Shown here: one piece after another, positions 7,115 through 23,941 of the stretch
Position numbering within the stretch: the first letter of the stretch is position 1
Layout: every line of letters begins with the position of its first letter
Assembly (NCBI GenBank): GCA_003599425.1
Contig: QZKC01000058.1
Span: 1-47,395 of the forward strand
Source: Nitrospiraceae bacterium
GTDB taxonomy: Bacteria > Nitrospirota > Thermodesulfovibrionia > UBA6902
Reading direction: 5' to 3'
Length of the DNA: 47,395 bases
Made by a program: the position numbers and the translations under genes
Notes under the pieces: generated by a model
Seen by the model: only the letters and a program-made list of their open reading frames with translations
Database searches by the model: none
Told to the model about the DNA's origin: nothing

Positions 7115-8458
7115 GTGAAACCATCGATATTGATAGTAGATGATGACCGGGCAGTTCGAGAGAATCTGGCGAAATATTTATCTCCTGATTATGTAACTTA
7201 TATTGCCTCAAATGGCCACGACGCTATCAGGAAGATCCAGGAAAATAGTGATATAGAGGTTATTCTTAGCGACCTGAAGATGCCGGAAATGGACGGCATA
7301 GAGCTTCTGGAAAAGGTCAAGTTAAGCAATAAGGATATTGTTACTATTTTTATAACCGGATTTTCAACAATAGAGTCGGCGGTTGATGCCATGAGAAAAG
7401 GGGCATACGATTATCTTACGAAGCCGATTGATCTGAACAAGCTGGAAATAACCATTAAAAATGCTATCGAAAACAAGAAACTGCGCTCGGAAAACATCAT
7501 GCTCAAACAACAGATAAGGGAGAAATTCGATGCCACTACCCTTGTCGGCAGTTCCGGGAAAATTACAAAGATCATGGAGCTTATAAAACGCGTGGCGTCA
7601 ACCAAGGCGACCGTATTGATCCTTGGTGAAAGCGGCACCGGCAAAGAACTTGTTGCAAATATCATTCACTATAACAGTATGGCCGCCAACGGCCCTTTTA
7701 TAAAAGTTAACTGTTCCGCCCTTGCGGAAGGAGTTCTGGAAAGCGAGCTTTTCGGGCATGAAAAGGGCGCTTTTACAGGCGCTCTTTATATGAAAAAAGG
7801 CAGGTTCGAGCTTGCTGACGGAGGCACTCTGTTCCTCGATGAAATTGGAGACCTCCCCCCAAGTATTCAGGTGAAACTGCTCCGGTTCCTGCAGGAAGCC
7901 GAATTTGAAAGGGTGGGCGGGACCAAGACAATGAAAGTAGATGTGAGGATCATATCAGCAACCAATAAAGACCTTGAGCAACTGGTCAGAGAAGAAAAAT
8001 TCAGGGAAGACCTTTTCTACCGGTTAAAGGTTGTAACTATTGAGGTGCCTCCTCTCAGGGAAAGGAAAGATGATATCCCTCTGCTTGTTGAGCATTCCCT
8101 GAAAAAGTTTTCCGAAATACATAATAAAAATTTGAGAGGAACCACCCCGGAAGCCATGAATGTCATTCGGTCATACAATTGGCCCGGTAATATCAGAGAG
8201 CTGATGAACTGTATTGAAAGCTCTGTCGTAATGAGCATAGGGGACAAGCTTGATGTCGACTCCCTTCCCCCTTTTCTTACCATAAGGCAGGATGAGTATG
8301 ACAGGGGCAAACCAGCAGCCAACCTTTTTGAAATAGAAAAGAAGGCTATTCTTGAGGCGCTCAAGGAAACCGACGGGAACAAATCTGAAGCCGCACGGCT
8401 TTTAGGGATAGGGCTGCGGACGCTTTACAGGAAGCTGGAGCAGTACGGAGTAAAATAG
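7115..8458 (+). CDS. NtrC-family sigma-54-dependent response regulator
   Basis: Receiver ILIVDDD/LSDLKMP; AAA+ GESGTGKE, GAFTGA, FLDEIGDLP; C-terminal Fis-type HTH. Confidence 0.96.
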   Translation: MKPSILIVDDDRAVRENLAKYLSPDYVTYIASNGHDAIRKIQENSDIEVILSDLKMPEMDGIELLEKVKLSNKDIVTIFITGFSTIESAVDAMRKGAYDYLTKPIDLNKLEITIKNAIENKKLRSENIMLKQQIREKFDATTLVGSSGKITKIMELIKRVASTKATVLILGESGTGKELVANIIHYNSMAANGPFIKVNCSALAEGVLESELFGHEKGAFTGALYMKKGRFELADGGTLFLDEIGDLPPSIQVKLLRFLQEAEFERVGGTKTMKVDVRIISATNKDLEQLVREEKFREDLFYRLKVVTIEVPPLRERKDDIPLLVEHSLKKFSEIHNKNLRGTTPEAMNVIRSYNWPGNIRELMNCIESSVVMSIGDKLDVDSLPPFLTIRQDEYDRGKPAANLFEIEKKAILEALKETDGNKSEAARLLGIGLRTLYRKLEQYGVK

Positions 8459-8467
8459 ACATATTCA

Positions 8468-9043
8468 TTATTCACTGCTGCCGGTTGTCCCCGTGTTAAA
8501 TTTCTTCAGTTCCTTTTCTATATTTTCTATGTGAGGCAGCACTGATGCGTTGTTTTCTGCCTGCCCGATTGAAGGAAGCAGTTCAGATATTCTCATATAG
8601 TGATCATTTATATTTTTGAACTTCCCTCGCAATTCCTTCATCATGCTGTCGAGATCCTGCGCAGTTTCTTTGAATTGATCACCATGTCTCAAGGATATGT
8701 TGACCGTTAAATCGCCCTTTGCCGCTTTCCTGACGTCCTGTGACATACGATAGACAGGGCCTGATGCTTTCCTTATCATCCATAGGGCCATAACTGTCAG
8801 TAATACTGAAACAAGAACGAAACTGACTATGTTGATCTTTATAAAAAGAGGTTTGAATATTTCACCTGTTGATTGGGCGCGTATGTGTATGCTCCACATA
8901 AGCCCGTCGAGTTCTTTCATGGCATAATAATTAAACACAATTATTGCCGCAAGACTGCCCAATAGGGAGATAATCACAAAAACCAGGATAAACCTCATTT
9001 GAAAACTTGCATCAATGAGGTATTTTCGTCTTCTGATTATCAT
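8468..9043 (-). CDS. HAMP-domain-only membrane protein
   Basis: Two TM helices plus GPVYRMSQDVRKAAKGDLTVNISLRHGDQF HAMP; no kinase or MCP domain. Start at MIIRRRKYL chosen over the ORF-track start, which overlaps the neighbouring cytochrome gene. Confidence 0.75.
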   Translation of the reverse strand: MIIRRRKYLIDASFQMRFILVFVIISLLGSLAAIIVFNYYAMKELDGLMWSIHIRAQSTGEIFKPLFIKINIVSFVLVSVLLTVMALWMIRKASGPVYRMSQDVRKAAKGDLTVNISLRHGDQFKETAQDLDSMMKELRGKFKNINDHYMRISELLPSIGQAENNASVLPHIENIEKELKKFNTGTTGSSE

Positions 9044-11238: not shown

Positions 11239-12984
11239 TCAGTATGTTCTTGGCTCATGACTAGACCCATGGCAATTCAGAAAGCATTGTCCTCTGAACA
11301 ACCCCAGGTCTTCAAAGCGCCTCCGCCCCTGGGTGTCAGGCTGCACGATCGTTATGTCGAAATTGATCAGATGTGTGTTATTAACGGAATTCCCCTGAGT
11401 TGAACTGATCCCGTGTGCGTCATGACATGCTGAACAGGGCGCATTATAAGTCACGATGTGGCTGAAATGCGATGGAAAACTCGCATTGCTCATAATGCTG
11501 TTCCTGTCATGGCACTTATAACAGAGAGCATAGTTAAAAGAATTTTCCTGTGTAAAATCCTGGGTCGTGTAATTCATTTCAAGCATATATTTATAATTGG
11601 ATCCGTGAGGCCCTTTGGCTCCAAGCGTATTGTCGTTATTGTGACAATCTGTACAGAAGATAATGCTGGCGGTCGTGTATGGCGGAAGGAGACTGGGAAC
11701 ATTAGCATTGATACCAGAGCTCTCTACAGGATGGTATGACGGGTTGGATGAAGCAAATTCGAGCCTTGTGTTAAGCTGCTGGATATCCCTGTCGATCTGA
11801 ACAACGCTCATGATGTTATTGTCAGCATGACATTTAAAACATATTTCATACTGATACAAAGCCGGAGAGGTATGCGGTCCTGAGAGGGTTATTCCTGTAA
11901 CACCGTAGCTGAGCCCCGAGATCTGCGGGGCTCCCGGGGAAATATCGCTGTTTGCCTGATGGGGATTATGGCAGTCTTCACATTCAACGTGTTTTTGAAC
12001 AATGGAAGTAAAATCCTCCACCGGATCGTGTATGTTGACATAGTTTTGTACAGCATGTTTGTAGATCTTCGATAGTTCTGTCTGGATATTTATGGCAGCA
12101 ACATTGCCATTATGGCAGGCCAGGCAGTTGTCCTCTTCAAATGAATAATTCAAAAGTCTTTCATGCTTGGCTGCTGTATGAGGTTTATGGCAGCTTTCGC
12201 ACCCATTTTCAGCAACAGTTGTATAAGATGTATGCGGCCAGGGGTTTGCACCTGCACCGTTCCATGCAGCATTTGATAATGCGTGGGAACTGTAAGACCA
12301 TCCATTCAGCAGGTGGCAAAGGGTGCAAAGATTGGAATGTGTGTTCTGTACAACAAGGAACTTCCCATTGGTATTGTTGTGAGGGTCGTGACATGAAGTA
12401 CACTGCAGTTTTTGTGTGCTGTCAAGTTTTATTTCAGGTGGAAGAGCAGCAGGATTTGCAAGCTCGCCGTTCGTGCTGGCAAGCTGGCTGTCGTAGGTAA
12501 AGGATACAGGATGGTCATCAGAAAGGTCAGTTCCGATTTTAGACGGCCCTTCGGGAATGAACCTTATGCCTCCTGTAAATGGCACTTCGAAGGATTCCGA
12601 CAGCAATGCGCCGAGAGCAATGGTGCCGTCATGACAGCTCAGACATAATTTTGATGCCCCAGTCGGCTGCCCGACTGATGCATAAAGAGTGGAACTCTGG
12701 TACGGGGTATAATTGTCTGCAGGCTGGCTGCGGTTCCACAAATAAGGAACATCGGTCCTGGCATTATGCGGGGTGTGGCAAAATACACATATTCTCTCTT
12801 CAGTAGTTGATTTTACCGGGCCTGGGCCTGTTACTGACAGGTTGTGTTTTGTGTCGACAATACTGGGAGAGCCTAATAATGGTGGCGGCTGTGCCCCTAA
12901 ACGATCTACACTGAAATAAAGCACCAGAAAAAACAAGAATACCAGGATTGTTTTAAAAAGAATTTTTTTCATTTCTGACCTCAT
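11239..12984 (-). CDS. Dodecaheme c-type cytochrome (11 CxxCH plus one CX3CH)
   Basis: Signal peptide; CVFCHTPH, CLSCHDGT, CTSCHDPH, CTLCH, CESCHKPH, CLACH, CEDCHNPH, CFKCH, CTDCH, CYKCH, CSACHDAH and terminal CFLNCH. Confidence 0.92.
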   Translation of the reverse strand: MRSEMKKILFKTILVFLFFLVLYFSVDRLGAQPPPLLGSPSIVDTKHNLSVTGPGPVKSTTEERICVFCHTPHNARTDVPYLWNRSQPADNYTPYQSSTLYASVGQPTGASKLCLSCHDGTIALGALLSESFEVPFTGGIRFIPEGPSKIGTDLSDDHPVSFTYDSQLASTNGELANPAALPPEIKLDSTQKLQCTSCHDPHNNTNGKFLVVQNTHSNLCTLCHLLNGWSYSSHALSNAAWNGAGANPWPHTSYTTVAENGCESCHKPHTAAKHERLLNYSFEEDNCLACHNGNVAAINIQTELSKIYKHAVQNYVNIHDPVEDFTSIVQKHVECEDCHNPHQANSDISPGAPQISGLSYGVTGITLSGPHTSPALYQYEICFKCHADNNIMSVVQIDRDIQQLNTRLEFASSNPSYHPVESSGINANVPSLLPPYTTASIIFCTDCHNNDNTLGAKGPHGSNYKYMLEMNYTTQDFTQENSFNYALCYKCHDRNSIMSNASFPSHFSHIVTYNAPCSACHDAHGISSTQGNSVNNTHLINFDITIVQPDTQGRRRFEDLGLFRGQCFLNCHGSSHEPRTY

Positions 12985-13022: not shown

Positions 13023-14069
13023 TTATGGCGATAGTGTTTCTCCTTTCAGATATTGAAATACCTGTATCCTCTTATTAAAAGAATCAGAAATATAGATCCT
13101 GTCGTTCCTGTCAATGAATATCCCTGATGGAAGCCAGAACTCCCCATACCCCGAACCTGACCTGCCAAAGTCCATGAGGAGATCACCCTCACTATTAAAT
13201 ATCTGAATGTTATCAAACATTGCGTCAACAATATAAATATTGCCGTCGCTGTCAGCAGCGACACCTCTGGGCCTCGCGAAATAACCGGGACTGTCACCTG
13301 GTTTGCCGAAAGCCTTCAGGAATATCCCGTCAGGAGAAAAAATCTGAATACGGAAGTTGAGGGAATCTGTTACAAGGATATTTCCATTTTTTGCTACAAA
13401 CATGTTTGTTGGATAATGAAATGTTCCGGGAGCATTCCCTTCCCTGCCTATTTTTCCCATGAATTTGTATGTATTAAGGTCATATCGCAAGATCTCTGAA
13501 TTGGTGGTATCGATAACGAGGAGTTCACCAGTACTGTCATTTACTGCCAGACCTGTGGGCCTGCTGAGTATTTCTGAACCGAACTCAGTTACAAACGTTC
13601 TCCCCTGATCAGCAAATACTTTCACAGAGGCGACTTTTGAATCAGAAACATAGATATTTCCTCTTCTGTCAATCGCAATATCAATAGGTGATACAAATTT
13701 TGTCTCTTTACGTGGGAACACATAGTAATCATTATTAACCGTGTCAAAGACATGCACAAGTTTCAGGAAATTATCAACAACGTAAATTCTTCCTGCAGGA
13801 TCGGTAACTATCCCGTATGGCTTTACGATGGATGCTTTCATCGTGCCCCTAAAAAAATTCAGAAGCTTTGCAGAAAGAGTGTCCCTGATGTTGAGGTCCT
13901 CAGGCTGAGATATAGAATTTACAAAACGTATTCTCGGTATTTCCGGAGGATTGGGCCATATAATATCAGGGAGCGGCTCTCTCGTTTCGACTATGGCCTT
14001 GAAACAACCGTATCCGCTAAACGCAAATACCGCGATCAGAATAAGGGCTGCAAGTTTTATCAGTTTCAT
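13023..14069 (-). CDS. NHL-repeat (6-bladed beta-propeller) lipoprotein
   Basis: Lipobox FSGYGC; repeated PTGLAV/PRGVAAD-DGNIYIVD-NIQIF NHL blades. Confidence 0.9.
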   Translation of the reverse strand: MKLIKLAALILIAVFAFSGYGCFKAIVETREPLPDIIWPNPPEIPRIRFVNSISQPEDLNIRDTLSAKLLNFFRGTMKASIVKPYGIVTDPAGRIYVVDNFLKLVHVFDTVNNDYYVFPRKETKFVSPIDIAIDRRGNIYVSDSKVASVKVFADQGRTFVTEFGSEILSRPTGLAVNDSTGELLVIDTTNSEILRYDLNTYKFMGKIGREGNAPGTFHYPTNMFVAKNGNILVTDSLNFRIQIFSPDGIFLKAFGKPGDSPGYFARPRGVAADSDGNIYIVDAMFDNIQIFNSEGDLLMDFGRSGSGYGEFWLPSGIFIDRNDRIYISDSFNKRIQVFQYLKGETLSP

Positions 14070-14071
14070 AA

Positions 14072-16090
14072 TTAAAAGAGTGTCCTCTTTATATTAAACA
14101 AGAAATAGTTATTATTGAAAGTTTCATCCGCTACTTCGTCATCTTCATGCCGGAAGTCGTATGTTATATTGAAAGTATATATCATATAACTCCATTCAAA
14201 AACGGAGGTGAGACCTTTAGTTGTAATGCGGTCGGTTGTACCGGAAATCTTATCAAAGAAAAGTTGAACATCCCAGTAGCCTCTTTCTCCTGCAAGCATT
14301 TGAAAGCCGGATTTAAAACCCATGGATTTATCGAGATCAAGCGTGTCTTTGAACCGCGTTTCACCATATTTCGCTGAAAAAGTCCAAAAAGACCGGTCAT
14401 TCGGTCTAAGTGTGATGATATCAGTGAAGGTCCATTTTTTGGTTGGCACGGTGTCAGTATACTGATCGTTCCATTCCAGCATGGCCTTGTTCCACTTCCA
14501 CTCAACTTCAGCGCCTGCGGTATGAAAACTGTCGTCGTTCAGACTTTCAGGGGGATCACCGGATATGAATTTCTGTTTTGAAAGGCTCAGGAGGTAGTAA
14601 AACCTCCATATCTTCCAGAGAGAGAGGTTTATACCGTAGGACTGGCCGAAAGAGGAGTAGTCAAAAGCAGGAGCACGGTATTCGTAGTCAACAGTCAAAA
14701 TTTTACCAGTATCGGTAATCGAACTTGAATCTTCAGGTTTAATGCCTGTTTGAGAGCCTCTTGTAACAATTGTGTAATCAATGCCTTCAATAAATCTGTG
14801 CCCGATCTCATCCTCTATGACAATGGAAGCAGGATTTATATTTTCATGCACGAGAAAGGTGGTGACACCATCCTGCAGGACTAACGGTTCATCGATCACC
14901 AGGATTGTATCGCCGCGTGGCCTGGTGTCAAATATCCTGTAGTCGAATCCGGATGCAAGATTAAGCACTCCTGAGGGGATTCTCCTTGTATAATTGAAGT
15001 CAACACGTGAGCCGTAAATATCGTTTCTTGCTGAAGAGGAGTTGTTCTCTCTCGCGTCCAGATCAATAGTTGTCTTCAGGTTTTCGTAAAGGAGATGAGT
15101 AAGGTTGAAACCGACTGACTTGGATTCGGTACGCAGAGGGAGTGATTTCAGCTTGTCAAAAATATTGTTTTTATCGTATCGGAGAGTATAGTTTGTTGTC
15201 AGATTGTATGTATTTATCCAGCGCAGATTTTCAAGGATATGGTATCTTCTGTTCACAGTATTGGTGCTGTCCCGTTCTTCATAGCCGAGGATTGAATTCA
15301 GCACAACGTCTTTTTCTTCAGTGAAATAATAATTGTTATTGAGCGCCGCCCTGAATTGATTGGTCTCGATAGTGTCCTGCTGTGTCGTATCCGTACTGTC
15401 AAAATAAGAGGTATCAAGTACGGTCGTGCCGAGATATTTATCATGTCTCATGTTCATGAGTATCTGGTCTTTTCTGTTTTCCGCTTCGTAAAATCCTGTC
15501 TTGACGCCTTCGGTGTGGAAGAAACTCAGATTCGTCGGCAAAATGGGATATTTCAACAGCAGTCGTGCCCCGTAAGTATCTGTTTCAGATTTCGATCTTT
15601 CCGCAAAATTGCTTCTTGTGGTCGTTGAGTCCTTGTTTGCGCTCAATATCAGTGTATATGGCTTATATTTCAAAAAGGTGAATTCAGTGAAATAGCCATT
15701 CAGAAAAGGCTTTGATATCCTGCGGTCGGCCCCCTGTTCAATTTGCACGCTCTGCTCCCACTCAGGTAAATACCCCAGTCTGAAAATGAGCAGGGCAGGG
15801 TGGTAAACCCATCCGAAGGTCTCTATATCAAGCTTTTCGATATATTTTCTTGTGATCGTTTCCCTGTCTGTAAACGGGCCTGACCTGATGTCTTTTTCAT
15901 ATTCAAATGAGAGGTCCATGGCGAGCTTGGGCCTCTCCATAAAGAAACTTCGTTGTGCAAACGCTTTTTTTTGAGACAGGGGAATGATGAAAACGACCAG
16001 GGATATGATGATAACCGCATTTTTCAGAAAGGTTTTATTTTCAAGAACGCCCACCCAGGCATGATTCGTGTAATTAATAGACCTCATCAA
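14072..16090 (-). CDS. Predicted outer-membrane beta-barrel protein
   Basis: N-terminal hydrophobic signal (AFAQ); alternating amphipathic strands throughout; C-terminal aromatic strand NNNYFLFNIKRTLF ending in Phe; no CxxCH. Confidence 0.8.
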   Translation of the reverse strand: MMRSINYTNHAWVGVLENKTFLKNAVIIISLVVFIIPLSQKKAFAQRSFFMERPKLAMDLSFEYEKDIRSGPFTDRETITRKYIEKLDIETFGWVYHPALLIFRLGYLPEWEQSVQIEQGADRRISKPFLNGYFTEFTFLKYKPYTLILSANKDSTTTRSNFAERSKSETDTYGARLLLKYPILPTNLSFFHTEGVKTGFYEAENRKDQILMNMRHDKYLGTTVLDTSYFDSTDTTQQDTIETNQFRAALNNNYYFTEEKDVVLNSILGYEERDSTNTVNRRYHILENLRWINTYNLTTNYTLRYDKNNIFDKLKSLPLRTESKSVGFNLTHLLYENLKTTIDLDARENNSSSARNDIYGSRVDFNYTRRIPSGVLNLASGFDYRIFDTRPRGDTILVIDEPLVLQDGVTTFLVHENINPASIVIEDEIGHRFIEGIDYTIVTRGSQTGIKPEDSSSITDTGKILTVDYEYRAPAFDYSSFGQSYGINLSLWKIWRFYYLLSLSKQKFISGDPPESLNDDSFHTAGAEVEWKWNKAMLEWNDQYTDTVPTKKWTFTDIITLRPNDRSFWTFSAKYGETRFKDTLDLDKSMGFKSGFQMLAGERGYWDVQLFFDKISGTTDRITTKGLTSVFEWSYMIYTFNITYDFRHEDDEVADETFNNNYFLFNIKRTLF

Positions 16091-16775
16091 GATCTTCTTT
16101 CAGCAGGAATCTGTTTTTCCCTAAATGGGGATTGTGGCATGAAATGCACTCCTTATCCTGTTTATGCTCCTCTATTGCAAGGATAAAACCCTTCGCATGG
16201 CACTTGCCGCATAAATCCCTGGATTTTTCCATCAGTAGCATATAAGGGAATGGGGACTGATGCGGACTGTGGCATGCCGTACACAGTCCATCCGATACCG
16301 GACCATGTATCCAGAGATCCTTGCTGAATGCGGACCGGGCTGATTTGGTGGCATGACATTCAATGCACAGTTCCTTTAACGGCGATGTCAACCTGCCGGG
16401 CAGGCCTCCTTCCCAGGTCGGGATCGCCCTTGCAACGGCTTTCTTATCATCCTTCTTGTCTGATGTTCTGATGCTTTCCTTTGGAGCAGTCAGATGACAG
16501 AGATTGCATTGTCCGGCCCCAAAGGGGCCATGTGTATAAGCAAGTGAAGAAATTTCGCGTGCTCCTGTCTTCCTTTCCTTCTTGGCGCCCGCTGCAAAGG
16601 CGCCTTTTTTCTTTCTTGCTGCCTCATCCTGTGGCTCGTCAGGATGAGGGACTCCAGTAAAGAAGAAAGTTAATACATTGTACCGGGTATATTTATCACA
16701 GCCGGTTGTGATACAGGCAAATACACAAGACAATGCGATCACAACTGTCTTCATTCTTAGGTGTATATTCGTCAT
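16074..16775 (-). CDS. Pentaheme c-type cytochrome lipoprotein
   Basis: Lipobox CITTGC; CNLCH, CIECH, CTACHSPH, CGKCH, CISCHNPH; stop overlaps the start of the barrel gene. Confidence 0.9.
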   Translation of the reverse strand: MTNIHLRMKTVVIALSCVFACITTGCDKYTRYNVLTFFFTGVPHPDEPQDEAARKKKGAFAAGAKKERKTGAREISSLAYTHGPFGAGQCNLCHLTAPKESIRTSDKKDDKKAVARAIPTWEGGLPGRLTSPLKELCIECHATKSARSAFSKDLWIHGPVSDGLCTACHSPHQSPFPYMLLMEKSRDLCGKCHAKGFILAIEEHKQDKECISCHNPHLGKNRFLLKEDLDEVY

Positions 16776-16790
16776 TATCAGAGTATTTAT

Positions 16791-17876
16791 TTACATCTCA
16801 GGCAGGGGGGCTCCGATCCAGTCTCCGAATCCATAAACGTTGAGCCTGCTTTTTCCAAGCTGATTGGATACATAAACAATATATTTCAGGCTGAAATCCT
16901 TGTCTGCATATTTCTTGAAATAATCAACATTTTCATAGTCCACATGAACTCCTCTGGGAAGATACATGCTCCCAGGCGCAATCCCCTGACCAAATCCTCC
17001 AAAAAAAAGTAAAGCCTGAGCGGTATTTATATCAAAAATCTGTACATTTTCAAAAGCAGCATCAACAGCATACAGATGTTCCTCTTTGTCAATGCTTATC
17101 CCTTTGGGCCTGGCAAATCCCCCCACGGTGTCGCCGTGATACCCTATGGACTTAACAAAAGCTCCGGACGGGTTAAACATCTGGATCCTGAAATTAAATG
17201 AATCATTGACATAGATATTTCCTTCTTTATCTACCGCAACATCGGTCGGTTTATAGAATTTTCCCTCACCTGCGCCAACATCTCCAATGCGCTGGGTGAT
17301 CTTCCCTGATTCTTTATCATAGACAATGACCTGATGCTTGTTGAAGTCGCATACATAGATCTTATTCTCATAGACAGCCACATCTAACGGCTTATCCAGT
17401 TCATCTTTGCTGCCATAGCTCCGGATAAAATTGTCACTGCTGTCATAAACCAGTATCTGCTTTCTTCTGAAATCAGCGACATATTTATACTCATCGTCCG
17501 TTATCCAGATGCCTGAAGGTTCCAGAAGAGATCCTGATTTCACATCATGAAGTGTGTCAAACTGGTTTTTTTTAAGGTCAATGATAATGATCTTCTTGTG
17601 CTCGAGATCGGACACATATATTTTGTCCTTAACAGAGGCTATATCATACGGCCTTTCAAGTTTTTTAAATGATTTTACGTCTCCGAGCAGAAATTCCTGA
17701 AATGCACTTTTTTGTTTCCCGATGTCTTCTTCATTGGTGATCGATACCAGGAATTGAAGGCGTGGTCTTTGCGGCGGCATAGGATAAAACACGGTCTGGT
17801 CTTCAGGTTTTTTTTCAGTGGCAGCACACCCTATCATTGTAATAGTGATTAAAAAGAACAGAAAATATTTCTTCAT
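16791..17876 (-). CDS. NHL-repeat lipoprotein (paralogue of 13023-14069)
   Basis: Lipobox TMIGC; PTDVAVDKEGNIYVNDSFNFRIQMF / PKGISIDKEEHLYAVDAAFENVQIF blades. Confidence 0.9.
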   Translation of the reverse strand: MKKYFLFFLITITMIGCAATEKKPEDQTVFYPMPPQRPRLQFLVSITNEEDIGKQKSAFQEFLLGDVKSFKKLERPYDIASVKDKIYVSDLEHKKIIIIDLKKNQFDTLHDVKSGSLLEPSGIWITDDEYKYVADFRRKQILVYDSSDNFIRSYGSKDELDKPLDVAVYENKIYVCDFNKHQVIVYDKESGKITQRIGDVGAGEGKFYKPTDVAVDKEGNIYVNDSFNFRIQMFNPSGAFVKSIGYHGDTVGGFARPKGISIDKEEHLYAVDAAFENVQIFDINTAQALLFFGGFGQGIAPGSMYLPRGVHVDYENVDYFKKYADKDFSLKYIVYVSNQLGKSRLNVYGFGDWIGAPLPEM

Positions 17877-17900: not shown

Positions 17901-18851
17901 TTATTCCTTTTTCTTTGTTTGAGAATCTGGCTGGGCCTGTATTGGCTGTGACTTATGTTCAGGAGTTTCCTTCTTTTGTTCTTCCAGTAAATCCCTTTCC
18001 CTGCTAACCTTGAGTTCTTCCGGGGTTGCTTCGCTGCCCGGGGTTGGCGAACTTTTAATGATATTTACAACCGGCTCGTATCTGTCATACTGGGCTGTTC
18101 TGTGGCAGGCTGTTTTGCAGGTTCCGCCAGTGTCTGTTATTTCAAATTCGGTTGAGAGAGTTCGGGTCCCGAATTTAAATGTCTCCGCGACAAGTTTTTT
18201 GCTTTTTGAACCGTGATGCTCGTGGCAGGTCCTGCACGTTCTCCCTTTTTTCTTGTTTACGTGCTTAAAGTGAAGGTTGAGATTTCCATTCCTGTACTTT
18301 GTCTCGGTAAGAGTCCTTGGCGATGTCAGGCTGTTTTCAAAGTTTTGATGACACTGTGTATTTATGCAAAGTCCATATGTTCCTGATGCATAAGATACAT
18401 AGGGAGCATCCGGGTAAGGAGCCTTCAAATGCCGGTAATAATCGCTTTCGTGCGCATCATGGCATGTGGTGCATTTGCCTTCCGCAAAAGGGGCGTGCTG
18501 TATCAAATCCCTGTTCTCAAGAATGATCTTTGGCGGATTCCCTTTTATGTCAGGTGGAAGGGTAGATTTCTCCCCGTGGCATTCGATGCAGAGCGGGAGG
18601 GTTATCTGGGATATTTCTTTAAACCTGTGCTCACCTTCTCTGGCGATCTTATGGCAGCGGGTGCAGCGTACCGGATCGAGCCCTATAGAATGAATATATT
18701 TTTTCTTCCCCATCTTTGCGTGGCAGTCAGCAGTTATGCATGAGGCATTTGTGTCTATGAGCAAAATTTTTGTTTCTTCTGATGCATGGGAAAGAAGAAA
18801 ACATGCTGCAGAAAACAGTGTGATTGATACAATTATGGTTATTCTTTTCAT
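17901..18851 (-). CDS. Multiheme c-type cytochrome (4 CxxCH, 1 CX3CH, 2 CX4CH)
   Basis: CITADCH, CTRCH, CIECH, CTTCH, CINTQCH, CRTCH, CKTACH; signal peptide. Confidence 0.88.
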   Translation of the reverse strand: MKRITIIVSITLFSAACFLLSHASEETKILLIDTNASCITADCHAKMGKKKYIHSIGLDPVRCTRCHKIAREGEHRFKEISQITLPLCIECHGEKSTLPPDIKGNPPKIILENRDLIQHAPFAEGKCTTCHDAHESDYYRHLKAPYPDAPYVSYASGTYGLCINTQCHQNFENSLTSPRTLTETKYRNGNLNLHFKHVNKKKGRTCRTCHEHHGSKSKKLVAETFKFGTRTLSTEFEITDTGGTCKTACHRTAQYDRYEPVVNIIKSSPTPGSEATPEELKVSRERDLLEEQKKETPEHKSQPIQAQPDSQTKKKE

Positions 18852-18937: not shown

Positions 18938-18973
18938 AAAAAAAACAGGCAGGTTAAAACCTGCCTGTTTTTT
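18938..18973 (-). terminator. Terminator downstream of the tetraheme gene
   Basis: AAAAACAGGCAGGTTttaaAACCTGCCTGTTTTTT-type hairpin with flanking A/T runs. Confidence 0.85.
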
Positions 18974-18990: not shown

Positions 18991-19659
18991 TTACTTCAAG
19001 TGACATGTAAGACAAAGAGCAGAAGCTGCATTGCTGACTCTTAAGAGAGCTGTGCCTGCAACTGCTTCCTGATCATGAACATCATGGCATGAATGGCACT
19101 GAAGTTTGCCGCCTACATCGAGAACGTCAGCGATAACGCCGCTTGTTCCGATTGGTGTTGATGCAGCAATATTCAGGTTCACATCTGCAACATCATCATA
19201 CACGATTGAGATCGGATGTGTGCCTCTCAGGTCCTCATTGCCGTTGTCGTCCAGTCTCGGAATTTCAGCGTATGTCGGTACGGAAGTTGTGGTAACTGCT
19301 GTGTTTTTCCCGAAAGCTTCGAGAGCAACTGTACCATCATGGCAAGCCAGACAAAGCTTTGCAACCCCTGTCGGCTGAGCATCTACTGCTCCGTCGAGAG
19401 ATGAGCTCAGTGCTGAATCATACATAGTGTATGTAGCTGCACTTAAGTCGTGGTTCCAAAGCATACCTGCTGCGTTGCTTGCTCTACCGCCATCATGTGG
19501 AGTATGGCAGGTGACGCAAATTTCACCAGTGCTGTTCCATGCTGCTGCTGAGAAATCATGGGGGCTGTTGAGAATACCTGCGCCGTTACCTGCTGCCATC
19601 GCCAAACTGCTTAAGCCAACGATTAAAATTGTTAATACAGGAACTAAATATTTTTTCAT
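18991..19659 (-). CDS. Small secreted tetraheme c-type cytochrome
   Basis: MKKYLVPVLTILIVGLSSLAMAAGNG signal peptide; CVTCHTPH, CLACHDG, CHSCHDVH, CLTCHLK; start at 19659 has a strong AAAGGAGGTGG SD. Confidence 0.92.
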   Translation of the reverse strand: MKKYLVPVLTILIVGLSSLAMAAGNGAGILNSPHDFSAAAWNSTGEICVTCHTPHDGGRASNAAGMLWNHDLSAATYTMYDSALSSSLDGAVDAQPTGVAKLCLACHDGTVALEAFGKNTAVTTTSVPTYAEIPRLDDNGNEDLRGTHPISIVYDDVADVNLNIAASTPIGTSGVIADVLDVGGKLQCHSCHDVHDQEAVAGTALLRVSNAASALCLTCHLK

Positions 19660-19785
19660 TCTGTTCCACCTCCTTTCGTTGTTAGAGTTTTTACGATGGC
19701 AGCAAAACCGTCTGTCCCAGACCTTTTGCTTTCCGTGCCTGCCTTGCAGCAGGGTTGGCTTTTTCATCGTATCCGGCTTTATGAA

Positions 19786-19803
19786 ATGCAAACGCTGTGC
19801 CAA
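19786..19803 (-). promoter_or_regulatory. Sigma-54 (-24/-12) promoter upstream of the tetraheme cytochrome gene
   Basis: Minus strand reads TTGGCACAGCGTTTGCAT, matching TTGGCAC-N5-TTGCW with correct GG-to-GC spacing; ~127 nt upstream of the start codon. Confidence 0.85.
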
Positions 19804-20076: not shown

Positions 20077-20889
20077 CTATTTCTTCAGGATAGTATCGAT
20101 AACCTGTTTGAAATCATTAAAGGATCTGTATTGCATCCTTTTCCCGTTCACAAATATAGTTGGAGTGCCTGAGACATCTGAACTTCGTGCAAGCGCTATA
20201 TCCTGCTGGATTATCTGATCGTATTTATTGCTTGCGAGATCTGCTGAAAATTTCTCTGCATTCAAACCGAGCTGCTGAGCAAAGTTTTTAAGAGATTCCT
20301 CGGTAATCTGTCCCAGATTCTGGAAAATGAGATCATGCATTTCCCAGAACTTCCCCTGTTCTTTTGCCGCTTCAGATGCCTTGGCTGCAAGCATGGCATA
20401 GTTGTGAAAGGGCAAAGGATAATGCTTGAAGGCAAGCTTGACGTCTTTAGGATAAGCTTTCAGAACATCCATGAGCGTTGGTGACACCTGTGCGCAATAG
20501 GGGCACTGAAAATCAGAGAACTCAACAATGGTGACCGGGGCATTCTTATTTCCTTTTACTGCTGAATGGGCAACAGGCAGATTGTAGACCTTGTTAAAAT
20601 CAATTGAGGGTCTTCCCTGCTGCGCTGCCGGCGCCGGAGCCGCAGACTTCTTTTCAATATCCGCCAGTTTTGCAAGGATCACTTTTTGGTTGTTCTGAAT
20701 ATCGTTGAGGGTATTTCTCATGTCACCCTGTATGTTTTTTATTTCTGTCTGGATATTTTTGATTTCCTGCAGGTCTTCCTTTGATAGCCCCGCACCCTTC
20801 ATTTCTGTTGCAGGTTCTTTCTGCACACAGCCGGATAAGCTCAAAGTTATGCAAAGCATCAGTGACATGGCCGTAAAAATTTTTCTCAT
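20077..20889 (-). CDS. DsbA-family thioredoxin-fold lipoprotein
   Basis: Lipobox SLSGC; FSDFQCPYCAQVSP active site; cis-Pro GTPTIFVNG. Confidence 0.9.
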   Translation of the reverse strand: MRKIFTAMSLMLCITLSLSGCVQKEPATEMKGAGLSKEDLQEIKNIQTEIKNIQGDMRNTLNDIQNNQKVILAKLADIEKKSAAPAPAAQQGRPSIDFNKVYNLPVAHSAVKGNKNAPVTIVEFSDFQCPYCAQVSPTLMDVLKAYPKDVKLAFKHYPLPFHNYAMLAAKASEAAKEQGKFWEMHDLIFQNLGQITEESLKNFAQQLGLNAEKFSADLASNKYDQIIQQDIALARSSDVSGTPTIFVNGKRMQYRSFNDFKQVIDTILKK

Positions 20890-21058: not shown

Positions 21059-23746
21059 TTATGGCTCTGCGCTCGGGCCTGGAACCATGAAAGACCTGTT
21101 GTGGTCGTGACAGAGCATGCAGTAAGAACCGTCCTGGTTTGCACCGTCTGCATGAATACCGTCACTCGGCCCCCCTGCGGCGAGGTTATGCGATGTAAAT
21201 GAATGACATGTTTCGCATATGTTCTCGTTGCGCGGTGGCCCGTCGCCGAGAGAACCTGCACCGATCCTGGTTATATTGGATATAATACTGTTGGGTATAA
21301 TGCTGAATGCATTAAGAGGCCGCAGAAGTTTTCTGTTCCCGCCTACAGAAAACATCGGGTCATGACAGTCAACGCACATGATCTCATAACTGTATTTATT
21401 AGTAGCAAATTCATTTTTTGCCGGATCACTGGTGTGCCCGTCCCGTTCACCATGACAGCGCTGGCAGTGTGTATCAGGGATTTTCTCGCGATAATCGATA
21501 TCGCCAGGGGCAAGTTCAACATGACACAACTGACAGTTGGCATTGAAGAATGCGGTATTGTGAGGAGGCGGCGCAGTTGATCCGGTCGGAAGAAAACCAT
21601 CCTTGTGCAGGTGGCATTCACTGCATTTCTGTCCGTCAAAATGGCCCACATAATTTCCGAGAGAATCATAATCCCTCGGCGCAGTTCCGTCTCTGCGATG
21701 GTGCCTTGTCCTTGTGTGGCACATCTCGCAGACATTTTTATTATGAGGCGGCCCGTCAGCAAATGAGCCGGGACCTGACGGTGCAGTAAACTGAACAAGT
21801 TCTTCAACATGCTGGCCTGTCGCCGCATTGTCAAAACAAATGTATTCTTTTATATATTTTCCGTACGCAGTCGTGTATGCCAGGTTCTGCTCCTGCAGAT
21901 GGGGATTATGGCAGGTTACGCAGGTCTGCCCCCAGTTTCCGTATTTGGCTCCGGTAACTGATGATGAATGCATTCTCACATTGGGCGCAGTTCCGTATCC
22001 ATACGGAGGATTCATTGGGTATTGTGCCTTGAGTGTACCGTTGAGAGGGTCGGATGTGTCGGCGGGATCCGCATGGCAGCGCTGGCACTGATAACGTGTA
22101 TTGTCCTGGAAGTTGTTCGGATTATGGCACTTGCCGCAATCAAGGGCTCCGCTGTTCGGATGGGCTGTTCCGTCAGGATTCAGCAGAGCGAAGAAGTGCG
22201 GGCCGTCCTTTGGAGATGTCCTGGTCGCGCATGTTGGAGGTATGCATTTCGGGTCTGCTGCGTCTGTCTTTGAATTGCAATTGTTGTCTATTCCGTCGCT
22301 GCATGTCGGACTGCCAAACGGTCCTTCTGTCTTGCCAGGGTTAACATTGACATTATTGTCATTGCAGTCTCCTGCGCATATAGCATATCCGTCTTTATCA
22401 TTATCAATGTCCGTGGAGATATCTCTCCTTCCATCACAGTTGTTGTCTTTTCCATCACACAGGATGGGGGTGCCAGGATAAACTTTGTTGTCTGTATCGT
22501 CACAGTCGCCTGGCGAACTGCTGTCTATGCAGGGTCCTGTCTCGCAGAAACCATCAAGGTCATTATCGACATTTAGCTGATTGCAGGCCGCATTATCTGC
22601 CATATCCGTAAGTCCGTTACAATTGTTGTCAAGGCCGTCGCTGCAGGTAGGGGTGCCCGGAGGGCCTTCGGTCTGTGGTGTTGCAGGCGTACAGGTATTG
22701 ACTATCACACCATTTTGGCAGATATTCTGTCCCGTTGATACACAGACCCCGGTTCCGCAGTTGGTTGAGGTAGGCACATATCCTTCATCAGGAGTTCCAG
22801 AGCAGTTCTCATCCACGTTATTGCAGTTCGTGTCTGTCTTGCCAGGGTTTATGTTTGGATTATTGTCGTTACAGTCAACGGCGGTGCCATTGGGACAGGC
22901 AGCTTCTCCATTTGCGCCATACCCGTCGCCGTCGTTGTCAATACATGCAGTCAGACAATTGCTGTCATTATTATCTGATGCTCCATCACAATCATTATCG
23001 ATGCCGTCAGTACATGTTGCATTGCCCAGAGGGCCTTCTGCCTGAGGAGTTCCGGGAATGCATGTATTGACCACAATACCGTTCTGACAGATGTTCTGTC
23101 CTGCCGCCGTACAGGCGCCAACTCCGCAGCTTGTTGGTGATGGTACATAACCTTCATCGGCTGCGCCGGAGCAGTTTTCGTCAATATTATTACAGTTCGT
23201 ATCCGGAGCGCCAGGGTTAATGCTTACATTGTTATCGTTACAGTCGGTCTCAGGGTGCGTGCAGAAAGCGCTTCCAGGGTTTCCGTAACCGTCCTTGTCC
23301 TTGTCGAGGCAGGGATTCTGGCAATCAGAGTCCGCAGAGTCAGTTCTGTTATCGCAGTCGTTGTCGATATTGTCACTGCAAACCGGGGCGCCGAAAGGGC
23401 CTTCTGAAATATAGGGAGACCTGTTAGGATTATTGTCATCACAGTCGCCTTTGCACCAGGGTACTCCGTCGTTATCTTTGTCTTCATCAGTTGCGAAGTC
23501 TTTTCTTCCGTCGCAGTCGTTGTCTTTGGCGTCACAGATGCGTTGTGCTCCGGGAAAGACTTTGGGGTCAGTATCGTCACAGTCGGCCTTGTTTCCATTT
23601 GGACAGGATATATCTCCGGGGCTGCCGTAACCGTCACTATCGTTATCAACGCAGACTGCCTGTGCGGATAACGGCATCAGGGTTACAACACCAAGCATGA
23701 GTATGAAGCATAAAAGCATGGATAGATTTTTTTTGCGTACAGACAT
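21059..23746 (-). CDS. Chimeric secreted protein: MopE-type putative metal-binding repeats plus C-terminal decaheme cytochrome
   Basis: Signal peptide; many D-x-D-x-DGY...DCDD(N/T)xxxxxPG...CD(G/A)xDNxCDG repeats, then ten CxxCH. Start MSVRKKNLS (23746) preceded by AAGGAGGGA. Confidence 0.9.
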   Translation of the reverse strand: MSVRKKNLSMLLCFILMLGVVTLMPLSAQAVCVDNDSDGYGSPGDISCPNGNKADCDDTDPKVFPGAQRICDAKDNDCDGRKDFATDEDKDNDGVPWCKGDCDDNNPNRSPYISEGPFGAPVCSDNIDNDCDNRTDSADSDCQNPCLDKDKDGYGNPGSAFCTHPETDCNDNNVSINPGAPDTNCNNIDENCSGAADEGYVPSPTSCGVGACTAAGQNICQNGIVVNTCIPGTPQAEGPLGNATCTDGIDNDCDGASDNNDSNCLTACIDNDGDGYGANGEAACPNGTAVDCNDNNPNINPGKTDTNCNNVDENCSGTPDEGYVPTSTNCGTGVCVSTGQNICQNGVIVNTCTPATPQTEGPPGTPTCSDGLDNNCNGLTDMADNAACNQLNVDNDLDGFCETGPCIDSSSPGDCDDTDNKVYPGTPILCDGKDNNCDGRRDISTDIDNDKDGYAICAGDCNDNNVNVNPGKTEGPFGSPTCSDGIDNNCNSKTDAADPKCIPPTCATRTSPKDGPHFFALLNPDGTAHPNSGALDCGKCHNPNNFQDNTRYQCQRCHADPADTSDPLNGTLKAQYPMNPPYGYGTAPNVRMHSSSVTGAKYGNWGQTCVTCHNPHLQEQNLAYTTAYGKYIKEYICFDNAATGQHVEELVQFTAPSGPGSFADGPPHNKNVCEMCHTRTRHHRRDGTAPRDYDSLGNYVGHFDGQKCSECHLHKDGFLPTGSTAPPPHNTAFFNANCQLCHVELAPGDIDYREKIPDTHCQRCHGERDGHTSDPAKNEFATNKYSYEIMCVDCHDPMFSVGGNRKLLRPLNAFSIIPNSIISNITRIGAGSLGDGPPRNENICETCHSFTSHNLAAGGPSDGIHADGANQDGSYCMLCHDHNRSFMVPGPSAEP

Positions 23747-23941
23747 ATGTCCCTCCTTATTAACTTGCAGAGCAAAAAAGCACAAATGTTTTTTGATAAA
23801 CGACTTAACAGTAATGAAAACCTATGCTTAAGCTAAGAAAATCTATCATTCTTTTTGTTAACTGTCAAGAAGGGAATTGTTAATGCCGGAATTGCTAATG
23901 CTTATAACTTATAGATCAGCATCTGCAATCGGGAAAAAAGA

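Follow-up and report, generated by a model that had tools for sequence, protein, structure and literature searches.

A UetA-like tetraheme cytochrome with a predicted OmcE fold is a probable filament subunit beside a Uet-type conduit in a Nitrospiraceae bacterium

The small tetraheme cytochrome UetA of this Nitrospiraceae bacterium is probably an OmcE-fold subunit of a conductive extracellular filament that serves the neighboring Uet (undecaheme electron transfer) conduit and is controlled by a sigma-54 promoter and a c-di-GMP riboswitch. We assign this reading a probability of roughly 0.6. After export via the Sec pathway and loading with four bis-His hemes, UetA would polymerize extracellularly into a linear filament of stacked hemes, each subunit lending a distal histidine to a heme of its neighbor, as in OmcE. 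The filament would serve the adjacent outer-membrane conduit, with the OmcE-like domain at the N-terminus of the undecaheme cytochrome UetJ as its probable docking site. Expression would depend on sigma-54 and on the state of a c-di-GMP-I riboswitch in the leader, which would couple filament formation to a surface-attached mode of life. The analyzed stretch of 47,395 nucleotides is referred to as the window, and window coordinates refer to its minus strand unless marked (+).

The gene (18991-19659) starts at an ATG at 19659, as read from the sequence, and encodes a UetA-like, secreted tetraheme cytochrome c of 222 AA. The listed frame of 18991-19803 is the longest TTG-started frame, inside which the leader falls by chance. 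A Sec-type signal peptide covering residues 1-22 (19594-19659), which reads MKKYLVPVLTILIVGLSSLAMA and is followed by AGNG, is predicted from the sequence and from orthologs with similar N-termini. The four heme motifs CVTCH (C48-H52; 19504-19518), CLACH (C103-H107; 19339-19353), CHSCH (C188-H192; 19084-19098) and CLTCH (C216-H220; 19000-19014) are invariant in 105 of 105 homologs in an alignment drawn from many phyla. The last motif is followed only by L-K and the stop codon, so that the initial annotation of a secreted protein of about 222 AA with four CxxCH motifs, one of them at the extreme C-terminus, was correct. Exactly four histidines outside these motifs, H34, H55, H148 and H195, are likewise invariant in all 105 homologs, OmcE included, and from this set of four CxxCH motifs and four distal histidines four bis-His hemes are predicted. 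The final lysine K222 is kept in 98% of the homologs, which marks the C-terminal CxxCH-x-K as a signature of the whole family at the level of the alignment. The histidine of a WNH motif, H70, is present in 81% of the homologs and has no counterpart in OmcE. Another contig of the same genome (C58, 4427-5757) carries two tandem OmcE-like tetraheme paralogs followed by an NHL propeller and more cytochromes, and this pair is a possible second filament locus.

A phmmer search of UetA against all PDB sequences gave only two significant matches, both end to end: 9YUQ (E 5e-19) and the OmcE filament of Geobacter sulfurreducens (7TFS, E 6e-14). The better match, 9YUQ, is a putative multiheme cytochrome c of 218 AA with 16 identical chains in one entry, for which no publication was found; it has the same eight histidines and the same C-terminus as UetA. 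A profile of 84 relatives, from which OmcE itself was excluded, matched 7TFS with an E-value of 9e-45. An AlphaFold model based on the 84-sequence alignment reached a pLDDT of 82.1 and a pTM of 0.79 and was used instead of a model based on 20 close relatives only, for which the pLDDT was 43. A structural search against OmcE had been proposed in the initial annotation, and Foldseek returned 7TFS as the only significant match in the PDB (E 3.5e-6, probability 1.00, TM 0.52). According to this model, UetA shares the OmcE protein fold. The resemblance thus comprises full-length sequence homology and predicted fold as well as size, secretion, the four CxxCH motifs, the four additional invariant histidines and the final CxxCH-x-K. 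A compact soluble cytochrome of the c7/c3 type was rejected because the full-length matches point to OmcE, and the Pfam hits to Cytochrome_C7 and paired CXXCH reflect the heme motifs only.

In OmcE, one heme is ligated by a histidine of the adjacent subunit (PMC9473688; review PMC12954529). If UetA polymerizes in the same way, the lent histidine is expected to be the N-terminal one, H34; all four distal histidines could also lie within one subunit. An unlikely but serious alternative is that UetA keeps the OmcE fold without polymerizing and, in monomeric or short oligomeric form, shuttles electrons outside the cell or in the periplasm to link the Uet conduit with other redox partners. Among small multiheme cytochromes, soluble shuttles are common. 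The published Uet accounts call UetA just an extracellular tetraheme cytochrome (PMC10734462). However, both PDB relatives match over the full length, 7TFS being a filament and 9YUQ an entry with 16 identical chains, and OmcE has exactly the same ligand set and C-terminal CxxCH-x-K. In addition, the UetA model is poor in regular secondary structure, like OmcE, for which little regular secondary structure has been reported (PMC9473688). As for what such filaments do, the physiological role of cytochrome filaments is described as disputed (PMC11077965).

The initial annotation rightly placed the tetraheme gene beside a conduit operon, and this conduit can now be named. Downstream of the tetraheme gene, the operon encodes three multiheme cytochromes, two NHL propellers and a 672-AA putative outer-membrane beta-barrel. 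Its first gene, recognized by synteny, encodes a multiheme cytochrome (17901-18851) and is followed by genes for an NHL beta-propeller lipoprotein (16791-17876; PF01436, UetH/I-like) and for a second multiheme cytochrome (16074-16775) with paired CXXCH motifs and a weak match to a multiheme chain of 6R2Q (Mtr complex). Next come the UetC-like putative barrel (14072-16090), proposed from its position and size and without a match in Pfam or PDB sequences, and a second NHL beta-propeller lipoprotein (13023-14069; PF01436, UetH/I-like). The last cytochrome of the operon is a UetJ-like undecaheme cytochrome (11239-12984) with 11 CxxCH motifs and one CX3CH motif; exactly 11 CxxCH motifs are present in 46 of 50 UetJ orthologs.

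As defined in the literature, Uet consists of the extracellular tetraheme UetA, the undecaheme UetJ, the porin UetC, the NHL repeat proteins UetHI and the PPIase UetB (PMC10734462). By this published description of gene content, the neighboring conduit matches a Uet cluster. Since the operon content fits the published complex, the small tetraheme is most simply UetA and presumably extracellular. The window shares with the systems of Ca. Tenderia electrophaga and Gallionella the co-occurrence of tetraheme, undecaheme and NHL proteins with a large putative porin (PMC10734462), a likeness drawn by description. It differs from them in that its other cytochromes are not simple trihemes, no PPIase (UetB) gene lies next to the tetraheme gene, and UetA is encoded in its own sigma-54 and riboswitch unit. 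In another locus (L125, 10505-11461), a PpiC-type peptidyl-prolyl isomerase, UetB-like, is encoded directly upstream of UetA. Electron flow through Uet may be directed inwards, since the system has been described in cathode-oxidizing and iron-oxidizing bacteria (PMC10734462).

The association of UetA with these genes recurs in other genomes. Among 29 uncut loci of at least 18 kb, UetJ was encoded within about 9 kb of the tetraheme in 27, NHL proteins in all 29 and a homolog of the putative barrel in 20. These loci were retrieved by tetraheme similarity alone, from the 80 top-ranking of more than 580 relatives, and the linkage thus applies to the nearest branch. The tetraheme loci include members of Nitrospirota, Bacteroidota, Calditrichota, Desulfobacterota and Proteobacteria.

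Of the two proteins, UetJ shows the closer match to OmcE. Residues 37-224 of UetJ form an OmcE-like N-terminal domain that matches 7TFS with an E-value of 1.7e-28, a stronger match than UetA itself gives in a comparable search. The eight histidine ligands of this domain are all retained in 49-50 of 50 orthologs. In a FastTree phylogeny, the N-domains of UetJ form a single clade, and a deep split with a support of 0.99 sets them, together with OmcE and 9YUQ, apart from UetA. A grouping of the window's tetraheme with OmcE was not seen in this tree, in which it was placed in the UetA branch. Because of this split, UetA is best described phylogenetically as a member of the OmcE superfamily and not as an ortholog of OmcE, and every solved structure falls outside the UetA branch, as both OmcE and 9YUQ lie on the UetJ side. 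This separation from the solved filament protein is a point in favor of a non-polymerizing shuttle. The filament reading, already put forward as a nanowire protomer in the initial annotation, keeps its basis in OmcE homology, the predicted fold and the eight-histidine set. Polymerization itself is something we infer, given the depth of the split, a Foldseek TM of only 0.52 and an AlphaFold model that is a monomer without hemes. Besides its position in the tree, UetA differs from OmcE in the extra H70 and in being encoded beside a Uet conduit.

The UetJ domain also offers a possible point of attachment. Its C-terminal end continues into the seven-heme part of the same protein, which would leave only one free face, and the domain could therefore act as a socket on which UetA subunits stack.

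The transcription unit of the tetraheme gene has a predicted sigma-54 (-24/-12) promoter at 19787-19802, which reads TGGCACAGCGTTTGCA; no other site in the window matches TGGCAY-N5-TTGCW exactly. As 0.22 matches per window are expected from shuffled sequences, this single match is weak by itself, and the case for the promoter rests on its recurrence in close orthologs. Most of these have a sigma-54 element at -136 to -149 upstream of the gene, where the background rate is 0.004 per 400 nt, and in one ortholog locus (L008) the site reads TTGGCACGGCTTTTGCG. A Shine-Dalgarno sequence, AGGAGG, can be read directly at 19669-19674, and an intrinsic terminator with a 15-bp stem and a T run follows the gene at 18940-18973. 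Because of this terminator and the separate one that ends the upstream gene (20065-20031), the tetraheme gene is probably monocistronic. The promoter, strong Shine-Dalgarno sequence and terminator reported in the initial annotation were thus all found. Its description of a sigma-54 unit holds for promoter and terminator and was incomplete, as a c-di-GMP-I riboswitch aptamer in the leader had been overlooked.

An NtrC-type sigma-54 response regulator encoded at 7115-8458 (+) is a candidate activator of this promoter. Directly upstream of UetA, a DsbA-like thioredoxin lipoprotein is encoded at 20077-20889; it is conserved at this place in two loci (L123 and L124) but absent there from the wider set of 80 loci, and is possibly a helper in cytochrome maturation. 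The window also encodes a 908-AA protein (21059-23785) in which repeated copper-binding motifs of the MopE type are joined to heme motifs resembling those of cytochrome c7.

An Rfam scan over the window identified the c-di-GMP-I (GEMM-I) aptamer (RF01051) at 19695-19769 with a score of 49.5 bits, above the gathering score of 35, and an E-value of 8.5e-7. The aptamer follows the sigma-54 site, with the predicted sigma-54 start a few bases 5' of it and its 3' end about 35 nt before the start codon. It is one of three c-di-GMP-I aptamers in the 2.9 Mb genome, and nine orthologs in other genera have an aptamer at the same leader position. One of the other aptamers of the genome (contig C8, 43895-43977 (+)) lies about 58 nt before the gene of a secreted protein of 511 AA.

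The aptamer retains the alignment positions that are equivalent to what we take to be the ligand-contacting G20, A47 and C92 of the Vc2 aptamer. G20 favors c-di-GMP, while A20 marks the cGAMP class; since the aptamer keeps a G at this position, c-di-GMP appears to be the likelier ligand. The variant class c-di-GMP-I-GGC was not adopted, as it scored 51.4 bits against a cut-off of 59 and the aligned position 47 is an A, although its model scored slightly above c-di-GMP-I in a permissive scan.

Folding models of the leader, based on the window sequence, gave no consistent alternative fold sequestering the Shine-Dalgarno sequence, and no terminator was found within the uetA leader of the window. 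A covariance model built from these aptamers detected another one in a Desulfobacteraceae locus (L081; 39 bits, E 1.3e-7). There, a sigma-54 site, a GEMM aptamer and a strong terminator (8732-8860) precede the UetA gene. Since the terminator shares sequence with the aptamer's 3' strand, ligand-dependent read-through, i.e. an ON switch, is predicted for this locus. In another ortholog (L011), the sigma-54 site and the P1 arms are kept and the aptamer core is replaced by a short hairpin, and this leader reads as a riboswitch remnant.

Because its leader carries a cyclic-dinucleotide riboswitch, UetA expression is predicted to be conditional rather than simply strong, and the riboswitch before uetA points to a coupling of filament production to surface attachment. 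In Geobacter, GEMM-I riboswitches control the extracellular electron transfer cytochromes omcST, pgcA and omcAHG (PMC6456294). The omcST case is similar to the window in that a GEMM-I aptamer is located in the leader of a surface cytochrome gene, including that of the filament former OmcS. The window differs in phylum, in the cytochrome concerned and in c-di-GMP as the likelier ligand. GEMM control of a filament cytochrome is thus known in kind and, as far as the literature found shows, new for uetA and this lineage.

The separate regulation of UetA also bears on how UetA and UetJ would interact. UetA might bind UetJ only, one-to-one or as a short cap that adds one OmcE-like unit, without forming long filaments. 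UetJ has its own OmcE-like domain with all ligands, and the genes of the two proteins are almost always linked, both in line with this reading. We nevertheless consider it quite improbable, since UetA is transcribed separately and regulated on its own, which suggests an independent and possibly excess dosage, and the genome contains two more stand-alone tetraheme copies on contig C58. Within the favored filament reading, a tentative extension, to which we would give somewhat less than even odds, is that the OmcE-fold domain of UetJ is the first filament subunit or socket. The histidine-swapped interface of neighboring filament subunits would then be used again to wire the UetA nanowire directly to the conduit, and the c-di-GMP riboswitch would time its building. 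This anchoring idea is the novel part of our proposal, while UetA as a nanowire subunit is otherwise of a known kind.

With the riboswitch before uetA, regulation by cyclic dinucleotides as known for OmcS and PgcA would extend beyond Geobacter. The locus also bears on the question of how cytochrome nanowires join outer-membrane electron conduits. Here, an OmcE-like domain occurs both in the likely filament subunit and in a conduit cytochrome, and the two are co-encoded in many phyla, which points to a concrete docking interface. If UetJ does serve as the anchor, this would provide a general answer, across many phyla, to the question of how cells anchor nanowires and make electrical contact with them.
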